26,822 bases of DNA, from positions 1 through 26,822 of the IMG/VR virus record IMGVR_UViG_3300030329_003710. One strand, given 5' to 3'. The notes under the pieces were generated by a model that was not told where the DNA came from, did not search any database, and saw only the letters and a list, made by a program, of their open reading frames with translations. The position numbers and the translations under genes are program-made. Positions 11,726-26,822 of this stretch are shown in pieces. This DNA comes from a virus. Numbering within the stretch: the stretch's first letter is position 1; every line of letters begins with the position of its first letter.

Positions 11726-11983
11726 ATGGGTCAGGGAGCTACAGCAAGCAGTCTCACCGCAGTCAACGGTGCGGTGATGATCGATGATACAGCAGCGCAC
11801 ACTGGATCGTTTATGGCAATTCAAGTTATTGGAGGCGCAGGGGCAGTCATCAACAACAGCGGAACAACTTCAAACATCGATGACTTTGACGCAACCATCA
11901 CCCTGGATTCCGGGCAGACCATTTACGGACGCTTCAGTCAGATCACTCTAAGTTCCGGCAAGGTGCTTGCCTACAAGCGATGA
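11726..11983 (+). CDS. small beta-rich putative virion protein
   Basis: This 85-residue protein has a mostly beta pattern (SFMAIQVIGGAGAVINNSG, DATITLDSGQTIYGRFSQ, ITLSSGKVLAYKR). The layout, AHTGSFMAI near the middle and GKVLAY at the end, is one I associate with a common family of small phage structural proteins of unknown exact role found in neck or tail clusters. The start ATG has no clear Shine-Dalgarno. The stop TGA (11981-11983) is one base before the ATG of the nozzle gene. Confidence 0.6.
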   Translation: MGQGATASSLTAVNGAVMIDDTAAHTGSFMAIQVIGGAGAVINNSGTTSNIDDFDATITLDSGQTIYGRFSQITLSSGKVLAYKR

Positions 11984-11984
11984 G

Positions 11985-14189
11985 ATGCCCCTCGACAGTC
12001 CAGTCCTATCTGACGGAGACACTGGTTTCCGCGCACTAGTTTCCAGACTGCGACCGTCTCAGTTGCAACCCGGGGACGTTGCTGTTTCCCGCAATCTTCG
12101 TTTTGACGAAAACGGTTCTGCTAAAGTCCGCGAGGGTTACATCAACAAGTCGGGCACCCTGCTGACCACGACAATCCTGCCGACTCTAAAAGCAACCGGG
12201 GATGCGACCCAGGGAGCGCTTTTCCTGATTGGGGAGGTAGATATCACGGCAATGGCGTTGGTCAACTCGACCGGTCTGGTCACAGTTACAACTGCCGCTC
12301 CGTGGATTGGTTCTAATCCTGGCATGACAGTTTTGGTGAACATTTCCGGCAACTTTGCAGGAAAGACAGCAGATCCAACTGGCAACCGCATCGCGACTTA
12401 TGTGTCGGCAACCCAGTTTACTTTTCCTTTGAGTGGAGCGGACGAGACGTTCAACGTCAGCGACAACGAAGTGGTTGGGTCATTTAAGTTGACCGGCGGG
12501 GTCAACGCGATTTACGGAGCAGGCAGGTTTTCTGATCCAAACAGCTCCAATGACGACTACGTCATTATCGCAAACAACCAGAGCGCAACAGCGGTCAAGC
12601 TAAGCACGGGAGCAAAGACAACCATTGCCTACCCGGCAGGGGTTACAGTCTCGTCGGACTGCCAGGTTCAGCAGGAGTTTGACGTCGTTATGTTGCGAGC
12701 GGACGGCATGACAAGCATGCAGTTCGATCCTGACGACGGCAGTACAGGGCTGGGCGGGACTCCTGCTTTCACCAAGGTGTCTTCAGGAACTTACACGCAA
12801 CCCACTGAGATCAGCGGCACTGCAACCATCGGCAATAACGGCAAGGTGTCGATTGCATCTACTGGGCACGGACTTTCCACTGGAGAGAAAGTTTCTATTC
12901 GCGCTGAGTTTGCGACCGAGTTGTCCATTGGGGACGAATACATTGTCACCAAGGACAACGACAACACGTTCCACTTCTACGCAGAGGTTGATGACACTGG
13001 CACTGGCGGAACCGTTGTTGTCCGCAAAAGAGTGTCTATGGGCGGCGGATACATTCATTCTCCTGCCGCCGCCTGGGGAACGTATCACCAGCGCAGAGTG
13101 TTTCTGCCGTATACTCATGACAGCGCCGCCTCTCCGTCCAGGCGGACGCCTGCCATCTACGATGAACTGATTGCGTCAGACGTTCTCGACAACAACACTT
13201 TCGATCCGGTTTCCAACCAGTTCAGAATTACCGCTGGAACTGCTGACTTCATTGTTGGAGCGCAACCCTTTGACGACGACCGGTTGGTTGTGTTTAATCG
13301 CAACTCAATCCACCAGCTTCTGGGGGTGTCTGGCAGTCTGCTGGACGTGCGCACCAATATGCTGACTGACGAAGTTGGATGCGTTGCGCGAAAAACGATT
13401 GTTACCTACGCCAACCAGATTCTTTTTTTGAGCGACGATGGGGTCTACGCGATTTCCTATGTTGACGCGCTCAACCTGCGCGGAACTGAGCAACCGTTGA
13501 GCGAGGCAATTGACGCAGAGATTAGCCGCATCAACACCACTTATGCTGACAAGGCGGTCGCCTGTTATCACAACAACCGCTACTGGTTGGCAGTCCCAAC
13601 CGGCACCAGCGCAATCAACAACGAAATCTTCGTTTACAACTTCCTGAACAGGGGCTGGGAGAGCATCGACACATTCAACGCAATCAACTGGGGGGTTGTG
13701 GACTTTGTGACTGCCCGGTCCGGCAAACTAAACGAGCTATACGCAATCACAGAAGAGGGCGGGGTTTTTCAGATCACCAACACGGGGTTGGCAATGGACA
13801 CCATTCCAGAATCCGCAGGCAGCAGCGACGAGACAACATTCGTCATTCCCGCTTCTTTGCGCACCCGCGCCTACACTCATGGCACTCTTGAGCGGAAGCG
13901 TTTTAACCACATTGACGCGCACATTGCCAGTGACCCTGGTTACGCTTCAAACGGGACATTGAAAATCGTCACGGAAGATCCAGACCAGGAGATCACAATA
14001 GGCACGTTGTCAGACCGGCTCGGATCGTTTCTTGATTCAGGCGAAGGCGCATCTATTCGCGCCCGCACAGGCAATCCCCGAGGATTCAGTGCGCAGATTG
14101 AATGGACCCCGACATCCGGGCGACCAGAGTTTCGCGCCGTGTCTGTTCGCGCGACTTCGACCTTTAACAAACCAACCTCAACGACTTAA
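11985..14189 (+). CDS. tail nozzle / tail tubular protein B-like
   Basis: This 734-residue protein is the likely tail nozzle (T7 gp12 or P22 gp10 type), which forms the lower tail tube below the adaptor. The N-terminus (ALVSRLRPSQLQPGDVAVSR, then RFDENGSAKVREGY) is typical of these proteins. The rest is strand-rich with beta-propeller-like blades (DDRLVVFNRNSIHQLLG, NQILFLSDDGVYAISY, YHNNRYWLAVPTG). Two inserted beta domains with the TGHGLSTGEKVSI type of motif are visible, at about 88-153 and 275-350. ATG 11985 is used rather than the in-frame TTG 11967, which lies inside the previous gene. The chance that it is another structural tail protein is modest. Confidence 0.75.
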   Translation: MPLDSPVLSDGDTGFRALVSRLRPSQLQPGDVAVSRNLRFDENGSAKVREGYINKSGTLLTTTILPTLKATGDATQGALFLIGEVDITAMALVNSTGLVTVTTAAPWIGSNPGMTVLVNISGNFAGKTADPTGNRIATYVSATQFTFPLSGADETFNVSDNEVVGSFKLTGGVNAIYGAGRFSDPNSSNDDYVIIANNQSATAVKLSTGAKTTIAYPAGVTVSSDCQVQQEFDVVMLRADGMTSMQFDPDDGSTGLGGTPAFTKVSSGTYTQPTEISGTATIGNNGKVSIASTGHGLSTGEKVSIRAEFATELSIGDEYIVTKDNDNTFHFYAEVDDTGTGGTVVVRKRVSMGGGYIHSPAAAWGTYHQRRVFLPYTHDSAASPSRRTPAIYDELIASDVLDNNTFDPVSNQFRITAGTADFIVGAQPFDDDRLVVFNRNSIHQLLGVSGSLLDVRTNMLTDEVGCVARKTIVTYANQILFLSDDGVYAISYVDALNLRGTEQPLSEAIDAEISRINTTYADKAVACYHNNRYWLAVPTGTSAINNEIFVYNFLNRGWESIDTFNAINWGVVDFVTARSGKLNELYAITEEGGVFQITNTGLAMDTIPESAGSSDETTFVIPASLRTRAYTHGTLERKRFNHIDAHIASDPGYASNGTLKIVTEDPDQEITIGTLSDRLGSFLDSGEGASIRARTGNPRGFSAQIEWTPTSGRPEFRAVSVRATSTFNKPTSTT

Positions 14190-14193
14190 CACG

Positions 14194-14982
14194 ATGGCAG
14201 ACCAATTTACGGCAGGCGAATCCTTTGCGGAGGACGAGCAACTCACCCACACCAAGCTCAACCGGGCGCAGACGAATCTCAAGTTTACCGACGACGCAGT
14301 TGACGGCACAACCTTGCAGCGCTCCGGTGAAAAACTTGCAGTCAAAAATGGCGGTATCGACACTGACCAACTCAACGATGCTGCGGTAGAGACTGCAAAG
14401 ATCAACGATGGCGCGGTGGAAACTGCAAAAATCAACGACGGTGCGGTAACCAACGCAAAGCTGGGTGCGGATGCTGTTAATGGCGACAAGATTGCAGACA
14501 ACGCAATTGATTCTGAGCACTACACCGATGCAAGCATTGACCAAGAGCATCTCAACAATGACGTCATTACCGGACAAGGAGCATTAAGCGCAACCCCTAG
14601 TCTGACCGACACAATTTTGATTTCTGATGCCGATGATGCAGGGAATCTGAAAAAGATTGAGCTGATGAAGCACCTGCCTCTGCCGAGAGCGTATGGGATA
14701 CTGAAAATGACAGGGTATGGCGTCGCAACGGGAGACGCTAAGTCTCTTTACAACTGCACTTGCACGGCGGCAAGTAGCCTTACTTACACGTTTGATTTAG
14801 GCAGCAACATGAGCAGTGCGGATTACACTGTGCTGGCGCAACAGCATAGCACGGTAGCCTGGGACGATGAAGACGACAACGTCACGGTTGAAATTGATGA
14901 CGAAAACACCTTTAAGATTCACATTGCCACTCATCTCTCACCGTATCACGTCAGCTTTGCCGTCTTTGGAACGCTAGCTTGA
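14194..14982 (+). CDS. tail fibre-like protein with decapeptide repeats
   Basis: This 262-residue protein has an N-terminal attachment-like segment (MADQFTAGESFAEDEQLTHT). Seven tandem 10-residue repeats follow (residues 53-122), with pattern xAVxxxKIxD; the second and third are AAVETAKIND and GAVETAKIND. The C-terminal domain is beta-rich (about 165-262). Repeats of this type form trimeric beta-helical or fibrous shafts in phage fibres, and the C-terminal domain would bind the host surface. It is short for a receptor-binding fibre. The gene follows the nozzle gene by four bases. Its TGA overlaps the next ATG. Confidence 0.72.
   Translation: MADQFTAGESFAEDEQLTHTKLNRAQTNLKFTDDAVDGTTLQRSGEKLAVKNGGIDTDQLNDAAVETAKINDGAVETAKINDGAVTNAKLGADAVNGDKIADNAIDSEHYTDASIDQEHLNNDVITGQGALSATPSLTDTILISDADDAGNLKKIELMKHLPLPRAYGILKMTGYGVATGDAKSLYNCTCTAASSLTYTFDLGSNMSSADYTVLAQQHSTVAWDDEDDNVTVEIDDENTFKIHIATHLSPYHVSFAVFGTLA
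14350..14559 (+). repeat. seven tandem 30-base coding repeats in the fibre gene
   Basis: Seven in-frame 30-base units encode decapeptides. Units two and three (14380-14409 and 14410-14439) are the most alike, while the outer ones have drifted at base and residue level. Unequal crossing-over or slippage could change the shaft length. Confidence 0.7.
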
Positions 14983-18435: not shown

Positions 18436-21400
18436 ATGTCTACTACGCTTGCTGAACAGAACCGGGATCTTCTCAATGCTGGTCTAATCGACCAAAACGC
18501 AGCGCTCACTGCAACCGGCTCACGGTTGCTGGAAAGATCGGAAACGGCAGGGGAAGACCCTGACGAGATGCTTGATTTCTATCTCAAGGGATGGATTGAC
18601 GCCGACTTGAACCTGACCCAGGACGGAAACATCTGGGAGGGCGTTATGGAGCGCGGGCTGGAAGATATTCTTTCGGAGCCTAATCAGGAAAAAGGATTCC
18701 AGCTTTATCAGCAGGCAAAAAACAACGGGGCGCTTTCCTATTATAAAACCCAAGCGGGCGAAGAATACGAAGACACGGCTGAGTTTCTCGCTCATGCGTT
18801 CAAAAACTTTGGTCCCATGGCAGGGGAGCTTTTTGGAGAGCTAATCAAGGTTCCAGGGGGATTGGCTCAAACTTACGACGTAATTGAGAGGAGCAAGCCG
18901 TGGTTCCTCCAGACTCCTGCCGGTTGGCTGCTAGGAGCAATTAAGGGCAAGCCGACAGAAGAAGAACTTGCCAGAACCAAAGTAGGTATTGACGCTTACG
19001 CAAAAGAAGCGTTGTTGCGGATGCCTGCGACGATGAGCTACGGGGCGCATGCCGCTCTCACTCACGGACCAGGAACAAAGCACTTGTTTACCGACGAAGA
19101 CCGCCTGCGGTCTGCCTACCTCTACCGAAAAGCGCAGTATGATATTGAGCAGGTCGAAACAGGCACAGCAGTTGCCTCTGCGATTGATTTTGGAGCGACA
19201 ATGGCAACGACCGTTGCAGATGTCGCTCTTCTTGGACTGCAAAGCGAAGAGCTTGAAGAGCTGATTGAGGACTTTCGAGAGGATAACATTTACGGAGAGG
19301 AAGGGGCAAGGGCGCGAGTTAAAAGCGCGGAAAAGCAGCTCAACGAGCTGGACCGGATTGAAGGCAATGACCCAGACCTGCCTTGGTATCAGCGCCCATC
19401 TCAAGAAAAAACAAGGGTAGAGAAAGCAAAGGAAACAGGCACTGCTGTAGGGATGATTTTGAGTCCCGACACCCTGACCCCTTTTGCTTTTGCAGCTCTT
19501 GGGAGATCAGCCGTCACTGCGACAATGCGAAAGAGCATGCAACTGAGCGGCGAGCTTGTTGAGTTGCAAGGCAAACGACAATTGTTGCAGTCGTCCCAAA
19601 AGGCAGCCGCTGCCAGCCCGTTTGGCAAGGGCGCGGCGTCACAGTTGCAGCGTCAGATTGACAACATTGACGGCACTATTGCGGCAACGGAAAAAAGACT
19701 CTTGCGCGTATCCCAGGCAGTTGAGCCGCGTCTACTTTCTGCGGTAGGAGCAATGGGCAGAAAGATCCGCAGCGTTCCTTTCAAGGCGTCGGGCGCAGCA
19801 CTGCAATCAGCAGGGACATTGCTCAAGCGGATGAATCCTGCGTTGTCAGGATTGACCCAGGGGGCGGCGTTCTACGGGTTGACCGGAGGGAATCCGTTTG
19901 TTGGCGCACTGGGCGTCCTTGCGGGAATGACCGGTCAGGGCGGCAGGACGTTTAGGCTTGGACAACGACTTTCCAAGGTAGGACTGGAGTGGGGCAAACG
20001 AAGGACTGCTCTGCCGTTTTTCCGCAAATTGGCAGACGAGAGTAAAGATAGCGTGTTCCGTCGCCAATTGTTCCTGGCTGGTGATTTTGCGTTGGGCAAA
20101 CCAGTCAGAATGACAAGGCAGTTTGCCGACTACTATCGCAGGGCATTTATTGCTGAAGTCCCATTCAGTTACATCGCGGCGGGAGGAGCTTCTTATGCAG
20201 GCGGTAACTGGCTCACAGACGCGATGGCAGAAGCGTTGGCGTTCGAGGCACCAATGGCAATGGGTGCCAACGTCACCGGCAGTCTGATGGGAATGAAGAC
20301 CGCAGGCACGGTCGAAGAGCAGAACCGCCTGGCAACAAATGCCGCTCTTAACTTTAGAGACGAATTTCTGCGTGATCCTGAAAAGCGGGCAGTTTTTGAC
20401 GCGCTGCCGCCGGTAGCCAAGAGGGCACTTGGAAATTATCACACCGCCTTTCCTGACCTCCATTGGGACTTTGATGTCTCCGTTGCGAATGGCAGTTCCT
20501 ATTACGACTCTGACTCTAACACTATCCGCATCAACCCCAACGATCCGCGTGGAGCGGAGGCGGCAATGGCGCATGAGTTCCGCCACTACTTGGATGCGCA
20601 AGGTTTCGAGCAAGGGGTTGTAGATGAACTCGTTGGACCAAGTGGCATTTTGCGCCTTAAAGACGGGAGTTACATGCCCAGCTTTGTGACTTGGGCAAAC
20701 AACGAAAACAAGCTGCGGGGAGACAAGTGGGATTTGTCGCGCAATGATTCATCTGACTGGGCAGAAGCGGCGCTGGAGTGGTCTGCCTATAGCTCCATGG
20801 ATGGACTTGCTTCAAGTGTGCGGCACAACGCTCTAATCAAAGCGACTCAGCGCCATCCGTGGATGAGGTCACTCATGGACGCGATCATGCCTGCATCCTA
20901 CAGGCAAAAAAGTCTGATGAACATGGGGTTGCTGTTTGACTCAGACGGCACGGTATCGGTCCGAAAGGGTTTGCCTGGCAGGGACGCCTACAAACAACAA
21001 GCGGCGATTGCAAAGCGCGTCCAACGATACATGCGCGACCGTGCTGGCATTGGAGCGACTGACGCAGATCGCGCTGACCTGCATGACCCCGAGAAAAGCA
21101 AAAAAGACCCTAACGCGATTCTGCCAAATGACCAAGAAGGGTTGAACCAGGTGGAGTCGGTAATGACTCCCGATCTCGAGCACGATGCGCAAGGCAACGT
21201 GATCCTCAAGAATGGCGAGGCGCAGCTAATCCCGCAGGAAACAGCTAACGCAAGGGCAGGTGAGGGACAACCGTTGTTTGGTCCGCAAATTGAGCAAGAA
21301 TCAAACGTGTCCTTACCCAAGGTCAACGTCGGGCGCGGCACTGATAATGGCACAGACCTGACCGGCGCTGCAAAGATGCACGGAGCGTCCCCGACCGGCG

Positions 21401-24400
21401 CATTGGTAGGTGCTGCACGGCTCAAGGAAATGCTGCGGTCGTTGCCGTTTTCCGATTACCAGTTGGAAATGTTTGATGAGATTGTTGACATTCTCAGCGA
21501 TCCATCCCGCCGGGGCGAATCACTGTTATCGTTTTATTTTCCGGTCTGGCGGAAAAAACGAGGCAAGGGCAACTGGCGCAACTTTGTCCCCAAGAAGGGC
21601 ATTGCCGGAAAGTGGGGCAGGTGGGCACCTTATGCGCTGGTGCAGTCTGACGAAGGCAACCTGCTCGTCTACGGGATTTCGCACGATCAAGTGGCAGAAA
21701 ACATTGCCATCCTGGCAAAGAGCGCTAGCGGGCGGAAGCTCTACGACGGGAGCGTTGGGCGCATTGCTAGCGATTTTGAGTTGATGGTCACCAACTGGGG
21801 CAAGGACATCAAAAACAACACCCAGTTTACAGACGAGCAGCTTAATTTCCTGAACGCGATTTTTGGCAACGTGGGCAAAGGAAACCCGGACTTTAATCCA
21901 GCTCTTTTAGAGGCACCTTTCAAGAAACTGCGCAGCGCAGTTCGCTCATACAGGTTGGACCGCTTTGCCAGAATCCAGACTCTGCCGCGAGATCCGTTCC
22001 CGTTTGCGCTTGAAAAGGGCAGGCGAAGGGAATTGCCTTTGGAGGAGCAGGCGATGGAAGGGCAGACCACAAATCCTCTCAGTGACGAAGAGTTGAATGA
22101 AACGGTTCCTGCCGACACTTATATGATTTACGGTCCAGGGGGAGCAGGAAGAAGGTCCGTCCCTCGCAGTGAATTGGAAATCTACAAGGGAGAGCAAAGT
22201 CCTCCCCGGGTAAGCAAGATTACACTGGACAAAACAAGTGGAGACGTAAGTCGATTGAGCGAATCGCAGTATCCAGTTGTTGAGGTTCATTTGGCAAACG
22301 GCGGGAAGTTTCGCCAGCAAATCAGAATATCTGATCACGACCAAGTTTCACGATCATCCCCCAGGACGTACGATTACGACTACCGAGGCAAGAACTTCAC
22401 GGCAGTAAAACCGCAGGTGCTTGAAGATATGCGACTCTTGGCAGGGGACATTTGGCAACAGCAAAAGGACTTGGCAGAAGTCACGCCCGAGCAGCAAAGG
22501 CAACAACGAGGGCAGGAACATACAGAATTTATAAAGCGCAAAACAAGGGAGCTGCGGTCGCGCATAAGCACTCTGGAAGAGACTTCATTACCGTCAAGGA
22601 GGGAGAAACTCCAGCAAGCTATTGACAGAGGGGACGAACGTGCTGCCGAGGGGCACAGGAAGAAGATTAGAGAGTTTGAGGACAGGATTGAGAAGGCACG
22701 GGAGGAGTTGAGTCGCTTAGAGGCAGAAGCTGAGACGCAGACCGCAAGCGATGCTGACTACCTGGCAGCGGTTGAGGCTGGGGACACTGACGCTGCGCAG
22801 AGGATGGTCGATGACGCTGCGGTAAAGGCGGGCATGGTCAAGGCTGCTCACGGCATGGTAGGGGAACTTGAAGGGAACACGTTTGACCGAGGAAAGGTTG
22901 GATCTAGGTCGGGAGCTAGTAGAGGCGGTTTTTCGTTTACCACTGACACGGACGCCGCAAAAGCCTATGCGCTATCCTCCAATGAGGAGGCAGATGTCCT
23001 CTGGTGGGCGCAAAAAACGAACGAGATATTGGGGGCAATTCCCGAGACATCACAAGCAGAAGTAGACGGGACTTCCATCAAAGAAGTGGAGTGGGACACG
23101 GGGGCAATGGACATAGATGAGAATGCCTTGGCTCAGATACCTGACGACATTCGATATATCGCGGACGCAATCCGAGAGCATGAACCTAAAGCGGCAGCGA
23201 AACTTGACAGCCTAGCGAAAAAGTCTCCTCCGCAAGACCGGAAGGGAAAAGTGGTAGAGGTTTACTTGTCTCTAAACAATGCCCAAACAGTGCAAGCCTC
23301 TATTGGTGCGTTTGGGCAAGATTTATGGGGAGTAAAAGCTACTTCCGAATCGGACGTAATTGTTGAAACCGACAACGGGGAGAAAGTCTACTATGTCTAC
23401 AGTCCCTCTAGCATAAAATCCGCCGACCCTGTTACCCGGGACGACCAAGGCAACGTCATCCCTTTGTCCAAACGCTTTGACACCGAGGACGACATCCGGG
23501 GAGACGTAGGCAGACCCACCACTCCAGTTGCACAACTTGGGGGGCGTCGGGAAATGCCGCTTGAGCAACCTGACCAGCACGGGATGCGTTCATCCCTGGT
23601 GGAGAATCTCAGCGACAAGGTGCAGGGCAAACGTGCAAGCGCAGATCAACTCAAGGCACTGATTGCTCCCAAAAAAGGTCTGGTCAACCAGGAAGAGGCA
23701 AAGTGGTTAATGGTGGAAGACGTCATCGACAGACTAGCAGAGAAGCACAACGGCAAGGTGCCGGTTGCAGAGTTCTTTGAGGAACTGCGCAACCGAGGGG
23801 ATCAACTGCTGGATGAGGTTGAGCTGCGTGACGATAACCCAGAAATCACTCCTGACCAGTGGCAACTTGATGAACGGATATTGCGAGAGGGTAGTTCAGA
23901 AGAAACTGCTATTGCGCAAGTAATAGATGACTATCTCGCAGGTGACATCGAGGGTGTGTTCCCTGCAAATCAACGCAAACGAGTGCCCTCAAGACCTATA
24001 GACGTTTTCGAAAACCAGGAACTTGGTACGCCTATGTATGGATTTGTTGAAGACCTTACAGACGGGGACACCGCATACAGACTTCTGCATCATACGATTC
24101 ATGGTGTTCGTGTTCCTCGTGGAGCAAATAGATTCAGAGATAAGTTTGAAGCTAGATCATGGATCGAAAGGTTTGTCGAAAAACGATTGGAAGCCCGCTT
24201 TATGGACGAGCATCCCAAACCTATCTACGGGGATTACACTTTGGACGGGGGAGTAGACTACAAGGAACGCTTGCTTGTGGTCGGGGAGGGCAGGAACATC
24301 CGGCACGCACGGTCCGCACGGGATTATGATTCACCGCATTTTGTTCGACAAACAGGTCGCAAGGCAAAGGGATACGTTGCCCATTCTCGCCAGAAGACCA

Positions 24401-25425
24401 GAAAAGCAGAAGACGGCACTACAGGCACGTTTCTTGAAGAGGTGCAAAGTGATCGGCACCAGAAGGGGCAGACAGCAGGATACCTGCCTTCTGAAAGCGA
24501 CGTCATAAAACTTAAAGAGGAACAAAAAATAATTTACGGGCAACTCATTAAGGCACACAGGGAACGCACACGTCTAAAACAAGTCATTGACGACATTCTG
24601 ACAGGTAAAACGGAACAAACTCCTATTACCAAAAATGCCCCACAGGAACACAAAGCACAGGACGAACTGCACGCCCGATTGTCGGAGAAATACAGAGAGA
24701 TTGAAGGCAAATTAACTTCTGGAGTTCCTGACGCCCCCTACCGTGACTCCAATGCGTGGATTTTGGCACTGTTTAAGCGTGCCCTGAAGGATGCCGTAGA
24801 TCAGAACCACGACTGGGTTGGATGGACTGACGGGGATACTCAGAACGAAAGATACGATATAGACCTGAGTGACACGTTTGCCTTCATTAGGTGGGACGGG
24901 GATAACTTGGTTGCTGTGACCCAGGAGGGTCCCGAGACGCAATTAGATGAAGCCGTAAGACGCGAAGATTTGAGCGACTACGTCGGACAAAACAATGCCG
25001 ACCTTTTAAGGGAAAGATACGATGCGGCAGAAACGGAATTTTTCGTAGTTTACCAGGAAGCCTTAGAGGAAGCAGTTGACAAGCAGTTGTTTGACGAGGG
25101 AATTGATTCGACGGACGATGGTTGGGAGGCTGCAAGAGAGAAACTAAACGACGAGAAGCAAACCGAGGCATACGAATATGCTTACCGAGTAGCGCCTCCC
25201 GAGGCAGTGCTAGAAGGAGATGATTTGGTAGAAGGACCGGGCAATTCTGAACCTTTCCGCAGAATGTATGACCGTCAGATCCCCAACGTGGTAAACAAAT
25301 ACCTTAAAAAACATAAGGTAAAAGCTAGCCCTGATCGACTTGTCGATGGTCAGGCTTTCTGGAGGGTGGAGATTTCAGACGGTTTGCGAGCTGACATTCA
25401 GGAGAAGGGTCAACCCCGATTCTAG
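18436..25425 (+). CDS. giant polyvalent protein: zinc-peptidase motif, ADP-ribosyltransferase-like region and polyvalent C-terminal module
   Basis: This 2329-residue protein is about a quarter of the window. Residues 1-600 are helical with several hydrophobic stretches (about 247-267, 336-360 and 472-505). HEFRH (H713, E714, H717) in AAMAHEFRHYLDAQ is a zinc-peptidase motif. At 1352-1435 there is a coiled coil. YLAAVEAGDTDAAQRMVDDA leads into an ADP-ribosyltransferase-like part: H1472, a GGFSFTTD strand near 1493-1500, then SDVIVETD and YYVYSPSSIKSAD. The C-terminal module has FLEEVQSDRHQKGQTAGY (1999-2016) and ends EPFRRMYDRQIPN to GQPRF, both seen widely in polyvalent phage proteins. Such proteins are thought to be injected with DNA and act on host targets. 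It takes the place of T7 gp16 in the operon, five bases after the previous gene. Individual activities are inferred. Confidence 0.8.
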   Translation: MSTTLAEQNRDLLNAGLIDQNAALTATGSRLLERSETAGEDPDEMLDFYLKGWIDADLNLTQDGNIWEGVMERGLEDILSEPNQEKGFQLYQQAKNNGALSYYKTQAGEEYEDTAEFLAHAFKNFGPMAGELFGELIKVPGGLAQTYDVIERSKPWFLQTPAGWLLGAIKGKPTEEELARTKVGIDAYAKEALLRMPATMSYGAHAALTHGPGTKHLFTDEDRLRSAYLYRKAQYDIEQVETGTAVASAIDFGATMATTVADVALLGLQSEELEELIEDFREDNIYGEEGARARVKSAEKQLNELDRIEGNDPDLPWYQRPSQEKTRVEKAKETGTAVGMILSPDTLTPFAFAALGRSAVTATMRKSMQLSGELVELQGKRQLLQSSQKAAAASPFGKGAASQLQRQIDNIDGTIAATEKRLLRVSQAVEPRLLSAVGAMGRKIRSVPFKASGAALQSAGTLLKRMNPALSGLTQGAAFYGLTGGNPFVGALGVLAGMTGQGGRTFRLGQRLSKVGLEWGKRRTALPFFRKLADESKDSVFRRQLFLAGDFALGKPVRMTRQFADYYRRAFIAEVPFSYIAAGGASYAGGNWLTDAMAEALAFEAPMAMGANVTGSLMGMKTAGTVEEQNRLATNAALNFRDEFLRDPEKRAVFDALPPVAKRALGNYHTAFPDLHWDFDVSVANGSSYYDSDSNTIRINPNDPRGAEAAMAHEFRHYLDAQGFEQGVVDELVGPSGILRLKDGSYMPSFVTWANNENKLRGDKWDLSRNDSSDWAEAALEWSAYSSMDGLASSVRHNALIKATQRHPWMRSLMDAIMPASYRQKSLMNMGLLFDSDGTVSVRKGLPGRDAYKQQAAIAKRVQRYMRDRAGIGATDADRADLHDPEKSKKDPNAILPNDQEGLNQVESVMTPDLEHDAQGNVILKNGEAQLIPQETANARAGEGQPLFGPQIEQESNVSLPKVNVGRGTDNGTDLTGAAKMHGASPTGALVGAARLKEMLRSLPFSDYQLEMFDEIVDILSDPSRRGESLLSFYFPVWRKKRGKGNWRNFVPKKGIAGKWGRWAPYALVQSDEGNLLVYGISHDQVAENIAILAKSASGRKLYDGSVGRIASDFELMVTNWGKDIKNNTQFTDEQLNFLNAIFGNVGKGNPDFNPALLEAPFKKLRSAVRSYRLDRFARIQTLPRDPFPFALEKGRRRELPLEEQAMEGQTTNPLSDEELNETVPADTYMIYGPGGAGRRSVPRSELEIYKGEQSPPRVSKITLDKTSGDVSRLSESQYPVVEVHLANGGKFRQQIRISDHDQVSRSSPRTYDYDYRGKNFTAVKPQVLEDMRLLAGDIWQQQKDLAEVTPEQQRQQRGQEHTEFIKRKTRELRSRISTLEETSLPSRREKLQQAIDRGDERAAEGHRKKIREFEDRIEKAREELSRLEAEAETQTASDADYLAAVEAGDTDAAQRMVDDAAVKAGMVKAAHGMVGELEGNTFDRGKVGSRSGASRGGFSFTTDTDAAKAYALSSNEEADVLWWAQKTNEILGAIPETSQAEVDGTSIKEVEWDTGAMDIDENALAQIPDDIRYIADAIREHEPKAAAKLDSLAKKSPPQDRKGKVVEVYLSLNNAQTVQASIGAFGQDLWGVKATSESDVIVETDNGEKVYYVYSPSSIKSADPVTRDDQGNVIPLSKRFDTEDDIRGDVGRPTTPVAQLGGRREMPLEQPDQHGMRSSLVENLSDKVQGKRASADQLKALIAPKKGLVNQEEAKWLMVEDVIDRLAEKHNGKVPVAEFFEELRNRGDQLLDEVELRDDNPEITPDQWQLDERILREGSSEETAIAQVIDDYLAGDIEGVFPANQRKRVPSRPIDVFENQELGTPMYGFVEDLTDGDTAYRLLHHTIHGVRVPRGANRFRDKFEARSWIERFVEKRLEARFMDEHPKPIYGDYTLDGGVDYKERLLVVGEGRNIRHARSARDYDSPHFVRQTGRKAKGYVAHSRQKTRKAEDGTTGTFLEEVQSDRHQKGQTAGYLPSESDVIKLKEEQKIIYGQLIKAHRERTRLKQVIDDILTGKTEQTPITKNAPQEHKAQDELHARLSEKYREIEGKLTSGVPDAPYRDSNAWILALFKRALKDAVDQNHDWVGWTDGDTQNERYDIDLSDTFAFIRWDGDNLVAVTQEGPETQLDEAVRREDLSDYVGQNNADLLRERYDAAETEFFVVYQEALEEAVDKQLFDEGIDSTDDGWEAAREKLNDEKQTEAYEYAYRVAPPEAVLEGDDLVEGPGNSEPFRRMYDRQIPNVVNKYLKKHKVKASPDRLVDGQAFWRVEISDGLRADIQEKGQPRF

Positions 25426-25713: not shown

Positions 25714-25724
25714 TTTTACACTTA
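25714..25724. repeat. candidate integrase arm-type site, left copy
   Basis: TTTTACACTTA also occurs at 25967-25977 in the same orientation. The two copies lie about 127 bases either side of the tRNA-like core at about 25845, as arm-type sites of a tyrosine integrase could. Confidence 0.45.
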
Positions 25725-25727
25725 TCC

Positions 25728-25746
25728 GGTATACCGCCGGTATACC
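25728..25746. promoter_or_regulatory. dyad operator-like site
   Basis: Two GGTATACC boxes (25728-25735 and 25739-25746) have centres 11 bases apart, about one helical turn. The 19-base stretch is perfectly palindromic around C25737. This suggests binding by a dimeric regulator, such as a repressor or excisionase, or a further integrase site. No partner gene is identified. Confidence 0.45.
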
Positions 25747-25834
25747 ATGGTTAACCTTGAGTTAAGAAAGGCTAACCTTTGCTGTTTTTGCCCCTTGTTT
25801 TTAAGGGTCAAATGACAACCACTAAGACAGAAAA

Positions 25835-25862
25835 CTAAGTTCGAGTCCTAGCAGGGCTGCCA
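25835..25862 (+). other. tRNA 3'-end-like segment, candidate att core
   Basis: The segment reads like the T-arm and acceptor end of a tRNA. It has CTAAG, a T-loop TTCGAGT, CCTAG with one A-C mismatch in the stem, then CAGGGCT, a G discriminator and CCA. No 5' half is present, so it is not a working tRNA gene. Phages that integrate into tRNA genes carry just such a 3' copy to restore the gene. Confidence 0.5.
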
Positions 25863-25954
25863 CTCTTTCTCTGGTTACCATGGTGCCCAAAAGCCTATTT
25901 TAATAGGTTGCTGTTGTCTGGATTCGTCCAAACAGTGGCATCAGAAGAATCTCA

Positions 25955-25987
25955 TTTTAACGCTCATTTTACACTTAAGCGTTAAAA
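25955..25987. repeat. inverted repeat upstream of the integrase
   Basis: Perfect 10-base arms TTTTAACGCT (25955-25964) and AGCGTTAAAA (25978-25987) flank 13 bases that contain the right-hand 11-base repeat. It lies about 20 bases before the integrase start, so a bound protein could both join the att complex and control the integrase promoter. Confidence 0.5.
25967..25977. repeat. candidate integrase arm-type site, right copy
   Basis: This is an exact second copy of TTTTACACTTA, placed between the arms of the inverted repeat just upstream of the integrase. Confidence 0.45.
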
Positions 25988-26008: not shown

Positions 26009-26822
26009 ATGAGAAAGCGTACGCCGAAAAATGCAAAGTCGGGGTCCAAGCAGTTTCGCAAGTATTGGACTGCTACAGGACACGAAGGAGTTTTCTACCG
26101 CCACAACGACAAGGGCGCGGTAGTCTACGGAACAAGCAGGGTGAACAAGACCGGGCAACGCGCCTGGCACACCCTTTCTTCCGCTCACCTTGAAGCGGCG
26201 AAGAAGGAAGCGAGGCAGATCCGCACAAGCAAGGTGGACAAGGCACCGAGGTCGGCAATGCCGACTGTGCGCGATTACCTGGATGATCGCGTCAGGATTG
26301 CCGTGCAAAACGGGCATCAAGATCAGAGCACCCGGAAGACGACGGGTTTCAACTTGGACCAGATCCTTGAAGGGTATCGGCACCGCAACGCGAAAAACCG
26401 TAAAAATGAGCAGGGGAAATTGATCAAGAGGGGAGACGGGGCGTGTCCTGCTCACATTCTGAACAAGCATGTGGACCGGGTGACGGAGGAGGATCTGGAC
26501 GCTTGGTTTGCCAATTGTTTCCTCAATCCGTTCTCGCTGAGTGCGACCAAGGGCATGTGGACCGTGTGGAAGCTGTTGTTTGCCCTGGCGCGGAAAGATT
26601 CTTTGATCTTTGCGGTTCCCGAATGGAAAGTGCCCACCCGGGAGGCGACCGGCAGGGAGGAGAGATACAAACTGCGCACCGACGGGAAGCAGCGGGCGCT
26701 GGACGTGATTACGACGGACGAGTTCTTTGACTTGGTCGAGGACATCCGCAAGAACGGGCACAAGCAGGAGGGCATTTCGGAAGATAGCGCCAATTGGTGC
26801 GCTCTACTGGGCACTACCGGAT
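26009..26822 (+). CDS. int: tyrosine recombinase / phage integrase, 3'-truncated by the window end
   Basis: This frame is open from ATG 26009 to the window end (about 271 codons) without a stop. AAGGA at 25998-26002 gives a good ribosome-binding site. The N-terminal part (WTATGHEGVFYRHNDKGAVV, then WHTLSSAHLEAAKKEARQIR) looks like an arm-binding domain. VRDYLDDRVRIAV, then HVDRVTEEDLDAWF and FSLSATKGMWTVWKLLFALA match the SAM-like core-binding domain. VITTDEFFDLVEDIR, then WCALLGTTG is the usual start of the catalytic domain, just before the first Arg block. The catalytic R-H-R-Y residues lie beyond the window. It should integrate and, with a partner, excise the phage at the att region upstream. 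Confidence 0.82.
   Translation, partial: MRKRTPKNAKSGSKQFRKYWTATGHEGVFYRHNDKGAVVYGTSRVNKTGQRAWHTLSSAHLEAAKKEARQIRTSKVDKAPRSAMPTVRDYLDDRVRIAVQNGHQDQSTRKTTGFNLDQILEGYRHRNAKNRKNEQGKLIKRGDGACPAHILNKHVDRVTEEDLDAWFANCFLNPFSLSATKGMWTVWKLLFALARKDSLIFAVPEWKVPTREATGREERYKLRTDGKQRALDVITTDEFFDLVEDIRKNGHKQEGISEDSANWCALLGTTG

Follow-up and report, generated by a model that had tools for sequence, protein, structure and literature searches.

We propose that positions 25714-25987 of the window, by which we mean the whole stretch of 26,822 nucleotides analysed, constitute the attP of a temperate marine phage whose capsid is of SU10 type, and we hold this full integration reading, drawn from sequence comparison, with strong confidence. 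An attP suited to insertion into a tRNA gene had been put forward in a sequence-only reading of the stretch, and this is very probably the correct call, supported by a matching host tRNA end and by arm repeats that flank the core in three phages; the predicted host is a Roseibacillus-like bacterium. The site is a well-built, ordinary example of its kind, notable mainly for relatives that have a common layout and another tRNA aimed at. Two relatives enter the comparison, G006 (IMGVR_UViG_3300020465_000078), reached by a capsid search, and G426 (IMGVR_UViG_3300025132_000155), reached by the ORF of a giant virion protein. The features of the site and the arm words of the relatives are as follows.

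25714..25724, plus strand: putative left (P) arm-type site TTTTACACTTA, an exact copy of the P'2 site
25726..25746, no strand assigned: tandem CCGGTATACC x2 with 11-bp spacing within the left arm, candidate accessory-protein sites
25839..25862, plus strand: attP core GTTCGAGTCCTAGCAGGGCTGCCA, 24/24 identical to the tRNA-Gln(UUG) 3' end (T-arm, acceptor strand, CCA)
25892..25909, plus strand: short inverted repeat, GCCTATT TTAA AATAGGT or similar pairing, a candidate hairpin between core and right arm
25955..25964, plus strand: putative right-arm site P'1 TTTTAACGCT, 93 nt past the core end, as in both relatives
25967..25977, plus strand: putative right-arm site P'2 TTTTACACTTA, 12 nt past P'1, as in both relatives and the G200 tRNA-Leu element
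25978..25987, minus strand: putative right-arm site P'3, TTTTAACGCT inverted, its 5' end 20 nt from the P'2 start in three phages
26009..26822, plus strand: integrase gene, N-terminal 271 codons, cut by the contig end just ahead of the catalytic arginine
L086:11277 (left, at the aligned place), 11497, 11509 and inverted from 11529: G006 arm word TTTTGCCATT
L154:16323 (left, at the aligned place), 16545, 16557 and inverted from 16577: G426 arm word ATTTGCCATT

The core defines the target. Its 24-mer has its counterpart at L003:7545-7568, the 3' end of a tRNA-Gln(ttg) called by ARAGORN at L003:7494-7568, and the identity runs through CCA, so that the gene would be restored on integration. The tRNA 3'-end-like core recognised earlier, the 28-mer CTAAGTTCGAGTCCTAGCAGGGCTGCCA at 25835-25862, agrees with the host at 27/28 positions and was correctly placed, the exact part being 24 nt. 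A mismatch in the T-stem lies at 25838, the sequence further upstream is unrelated, and no match to the host flank extends past CCA; because identity is confined to 25839-25862, the window has the end of a tRNA and not a whole tRNA. The sequence-only reading had also advised looking for a host tRNA gene that ends in the core, and such a gene exists: in a species-level collection of 84,980 genomes the sole exact match to the core 23-mer TTCGAGTCCTAGCAGGGCTGCCA is contig PBLI01000038.1 of a Roseibacillus MAG (Verrucomicrobiota), where it forms the 3' terminus of tRNA-Gln with anticodon TTG. Within the family of this MAG the exact 24-mer is found in 1 of 260 genomes, and the other matches listed differ at 2-3 positions.

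The integrase gene adjoins the core, its ORF starting 147 nt past it. The ORF at 26009-26822 had no match in Pfam, PHROG or PDB, apparently because it ends before the first arginine of the catalytic domain, and its visible part is without any catalytic residues. Its assignment comes from full-length homologues. The integrase at the same locus of G426 (L154:16637-18034, 465 aa) matches PF00589 (E 4.3e-18), on inspection displays R, HxLR and H...Y motifs and is 41% identical to the window ORF; a homologue of 422 aa in G200, a genome of the predicted host family, matches PF00589 at E 1.8e-19 and the window ORF at 35% identity (E 5e-36). As homology to PF00589 proteins holds over the visible length, spanning N-terminal and core-binding regions, the window ORF is, by these homologues, the N-terminal part of a tyrosine recombinase, and the earlier placing of a tyrosine integrase gene directly after the site was right. 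An AlphaFold model of the truncated protein, consulted for a beta-beta-beta-alpha arm-binding domain at the N-terminus, gave E28-32, E38-45, E51-55 and H58-77 but reached a pLDDT of only about 50-60, too poor for use. Searches for the integrase in viral contigs by peptide patterns, singly and as a two-sequence alignment, returned nothing, as did tblastn against 50,697 phage records. The contigs of the window (26822) and of G006 (26669) both end inside the integrase gene, possibly due to integration modules varying within the population. Downstream of the integrase, G426 carries a small HTH-like ORF (L154:19438-19659) with sub-threshold Pfam hits, a 67-aa ORF (L154:19754-19957) with no Pfam hit that is excisionase-like by eye, a weak RecT match and a PD-(D/E)XK nuclease, and to none of these do we assign the role of directionality factor.

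The tRNA match points to a Roseibacillus-like verrucomicrobium as the probable host, on the strength of a single MAG. It is rather unlikely, though to be taken seriously, that the attP is real and its host another, unsequenced taxon with the same tRNA end, the match being coincidental. tRNA 3' ends are conserved and one MAG matches; attP-tRNA identity can be trusted to place a host only at about the rank of phylum or class (PMC3861242); GC content is 53% in the window and 58.5% in the MAG contig; and, because the integrase search was confined to the order of the predicted host, integrase homologues are not independent evidence for it. Against such a coincidence, the core match is exact and unique in the whole genome collection, and related integrases adjoin a tRNA within the same bacterial family. 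With the Roseibacillus-like host as the preferred prediction, the MAG (G001) held no homologue of the window-type integrase and no integrase ORF was noticed near its tRNA, so that attB appears empty there; an integrated relative at its tRNA-Gln is ruled out as far as tested. Likewise, a capsid search through 260 genomes from the predicted host's family, run without a positive control, detected no homologue, and hence no prophage of the window type was seen among them.

The sequence-only reading had described identical 11-base repeats on either side of the core, and these are the only two copies of the 11-mer TTTTACACTTA in the whole 26,822-base record. Its estimate of about 127 bases for the spacing was fair, the centre-to-centre distances to the core being about 129.5 and 123.5 nt. 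Taken alone, this repeat is weak evidence and only moderately surprising: first-order Markov sequences simulated for the 331-nt intergenic region contain an exact direct repeat of at least 11 nt in 1.9% of cases (P about 0.02) and a near-symmetric one in 0.2%, and 10 of 253 equal-size windows elsewhere in the contig have a repeat length of 11-12. The right-hand copy is in fact the middle one of three P' sites, with additional sites at 25955-25964 (+) and 25978-25987 (-), and the right arm reads TTTTAACGCT (25955), TTTTACACTT (25967) and inverted TTTTAACGCT (5' end 25987). The core is therefore flanked by one putative left and three putative right arm-type sites that are distinct from it.

It is the comparison with relatives that settles the case for attP. 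G006 is collinear with the window (TerL 74%, portal-position ORF 70%, MCP 64%), as is G426, which is nearer to it (MCP 89%, giant protein 73% over the first 1,220 residues). At the corresponding place between genes, ahead of the integrase gene, both carry the 3' end of tRNA-Asp(GUC), with differing arm repeats, and in all three phages the right-arm geometry is equal, site 1 lying 93 nt past the core end, site 2 a further 12 nt on and the inverted site 3 a further 20 nt. When the 12/20 geometry was taken from G006 and scored over both strands of each stretch, the site ranked top on both strands in the window (1/53,564) and in the G006 stretch (1/23,260), and also in the G426 stretch. Unlike the 11-mer repeat alone, the match to the tRNA and the constancy of the geometry far exceed what chance would give. 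From the left arm to the core the distance is 125 nt in the window, 104 nt in G006 and 106 nt in G426, and the 21-nt difference between the window and G006 would amount to about two helical turns. Of the symmetric arms first described, the repeats on both sides stand and the symmetry does not: strict left-right symmetry as a design principle is rejected, as the left-arm distance differs among relatives and the right is fixed at 93, and the right arm comprises three sites.

A rival view, in which the core is a tRNA gene remnant of host or phage origin and the flanking repeats serve the integrase gene as operators or promoter elements and are not arm-type sites, is very unlikely. The right-arm sites do stand directly upstream of the integrase start codon, and TTTTAACGCT/AGCGTTAAAA form a perfect 10-bp, operator-like inverted repeat whose possible hairpin is strong (z -6.3). 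Yet a related word also stands left of the core, away from the integrase promoter, in 3/3 phages, each phage has a tRNA end that spans T-arm to CCA although two different tRNAs are involved, and the spacing from core end to right arm is constant at 93 nt despite differing sequence and target. More improbable still is a chimera or a single prophage end (attL or attR): the assembly is metagenomic and the contig terminates inside the integrase gene, but tRNA homology does not continue upstream of the core, no host flank is matched past CCA, and the phage genes are collinear with two relatives on both sides of the core.

Further repeats lie within the attP. A GGTTAACCTT/GGCTAACCTT pair with 21-bp spacing is present at 25749-25779, TACCATGGT recurs at 25743-25751 and 25876-25884, and the left arm of G426 has GGTATAGCTT x2 with 10-bp spacing; those of the window, CCGGTATACC included, are possible sites for a directionality factor or a DNA-bending protein. 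The candidate hairpin at 25892-25909 is weak alone (z -0.5), but G006 has a hairpin at the aligned position with z -2.7, and the G426 sequence shows an inverted repeat. Scans for sigma-70-type promoters and for terminators across the attP region returned none.

A similar arrangement exists in a genome of the predicted host family. In G200 the integrase homologue begins 169 nt after tRNA-Leu(UAG) ends, and CGATTACTG is present twice, 12 bp apart, with an inverted copy between; depending on the register, the spacing of this copy is 21 or 23 nt in place of 20, which makes the geometry similar and not identical. G211 has a truncated integrase relative with the same motif. The G200 element would illustrate the integrated left junction of a window-type phage; its attR partner was not identified, other partial tRNA-Leu ends there being without the arm word. 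G200 and G211 (L088, L116, L150-L152) also contain several tRNA-Leu 3' ends of about 50 nt that belong to no complete tRNA, most with a TTACTG-type motif within about 100 nt after; the pattern resembles scars left by repeated insertion into one tRNA-Leu gene.

Neither attL nor attR, nor any circular or phage-host junction, turned up, and the core 23-mer occurs in no other viral contig, so we infer integration itself, and the host's identity with it. The sequence identities, the site geometry of the three phages and the recombinase homology are direct observations, from which we infer integrase binding, strand exchange and autoregulation as follows. The N-terminal domain of the integrase would bind the one left arm site and the three right sites, two direct and one inverted, and its core-binding and catalytic part would act on the 24-bp core, recombining it with the identical 3' end of tRNA-Gln(UUG). 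The phage copy of the 3' end would complete the host tRNA again, and, with core and tRNA end identical as far as CCA, the tRNA would stay intact. The prophage would then have the 5' part of the tRNA, the core, the right arm and the integrase gene on one side and the left arm on the other, giving a predicted attL of host ...ATTTCTAG + core + CTCTTTCTCTGG and a predicted attR of ...GAAAACTAA + core + TGATAATCAAAGG. The right-arm sites, 22-54 nt ahead of the integrase ATG, overlap its presumed promoter region, so that arm-bound integrase would probably repress its own gene, as was shown for KplE1 IntS (PMC2951348).

Elsewhere in the window, a single 2,329-aa ORF (18436-25425) lies upstream of the attP and is kept in two relatives, with a middle part that is strongly different among them and a G426 version of 2,013 aa. 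The left contig end (39-647) holds the C-terminal part of a DNA methyltransferase-like gene (phrog_32758, E 4e-10). ORFs 11967-14189 and 14032-14982, which differ in frame, share 158 nt (14032-14189) at the end of the former; the true start of the latter may lie further in.

The attP of phage lambda, like that of the window, combines a core with distinct arm-type sites for the N-terminal domain of Int, several of them P' sites; unlike the window, lambda is not known to target a tRNA, its int is read towards att and its known P' sites are all direct. The window attP is a further case of an already described type, whose closest published parallel is found in the Cluster K mycobacteriophages (CrimD, Pixie; PMC3203893), which likewise have a 24-bp core at the 3' end of an RNA gene, 5' of the integrase gene, with arm sites of 11 bp to its left and right, a part of them inverted, a putative stem-loop terminator that lies between the core and the right-arm sites, and arm words and targets that differ among related phages. 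The target there is tmRNA (K1) or tRNA-Lys (K3), in contrast to tRNA-Gln here and tRNA-Asp in the relatives, and the number and spacing of sites differ (PMC3203893). KplE1 (IntS/TorI; PMC2951348) resembles the window in that the integrase gene starts at the right arm, the P' sites overlap its promoter region and a tRNA is the target; it differs in using tRNA-Arg (argW) in E. coli and in having mapped RDF sites. The uncultured marine phage group G11 of Verrucomicrobia, likened here by its description, was given a host by the same attP-tRNA logic, and has an average GC of 45.2% against 53% in the window (PMC3861242).

The integrases of the window and G426 are only about 40% identical and their capsids 89%, which suggests exchange or rapid divergence of the integration module. 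The targets comprise tRNA-Gln in the window, tRNA-Asp in G006 and G426, and tRNA-Leu in the chromosomal element with its similar motif. We regard as evenly balanced the wider proposal that this marine phage lineage keeps a rigid right-arm scaffold (93/12/20, direct-direct-inverted) in which arm words and target tRNA are turned over, the module being a retargetable frame. For an uncultured phage, the analysis yields a concrete integration site and host prediction, tRNA-Gln(UUG) of Roseibacillus-like Verrucomicrobiota. The three related attPs, in which the target or arm word is varied and the right-arm geometry is constant, provide a natural series for integrase retargeting, and one that also suits the question of how N-terminal domains track arm sites.
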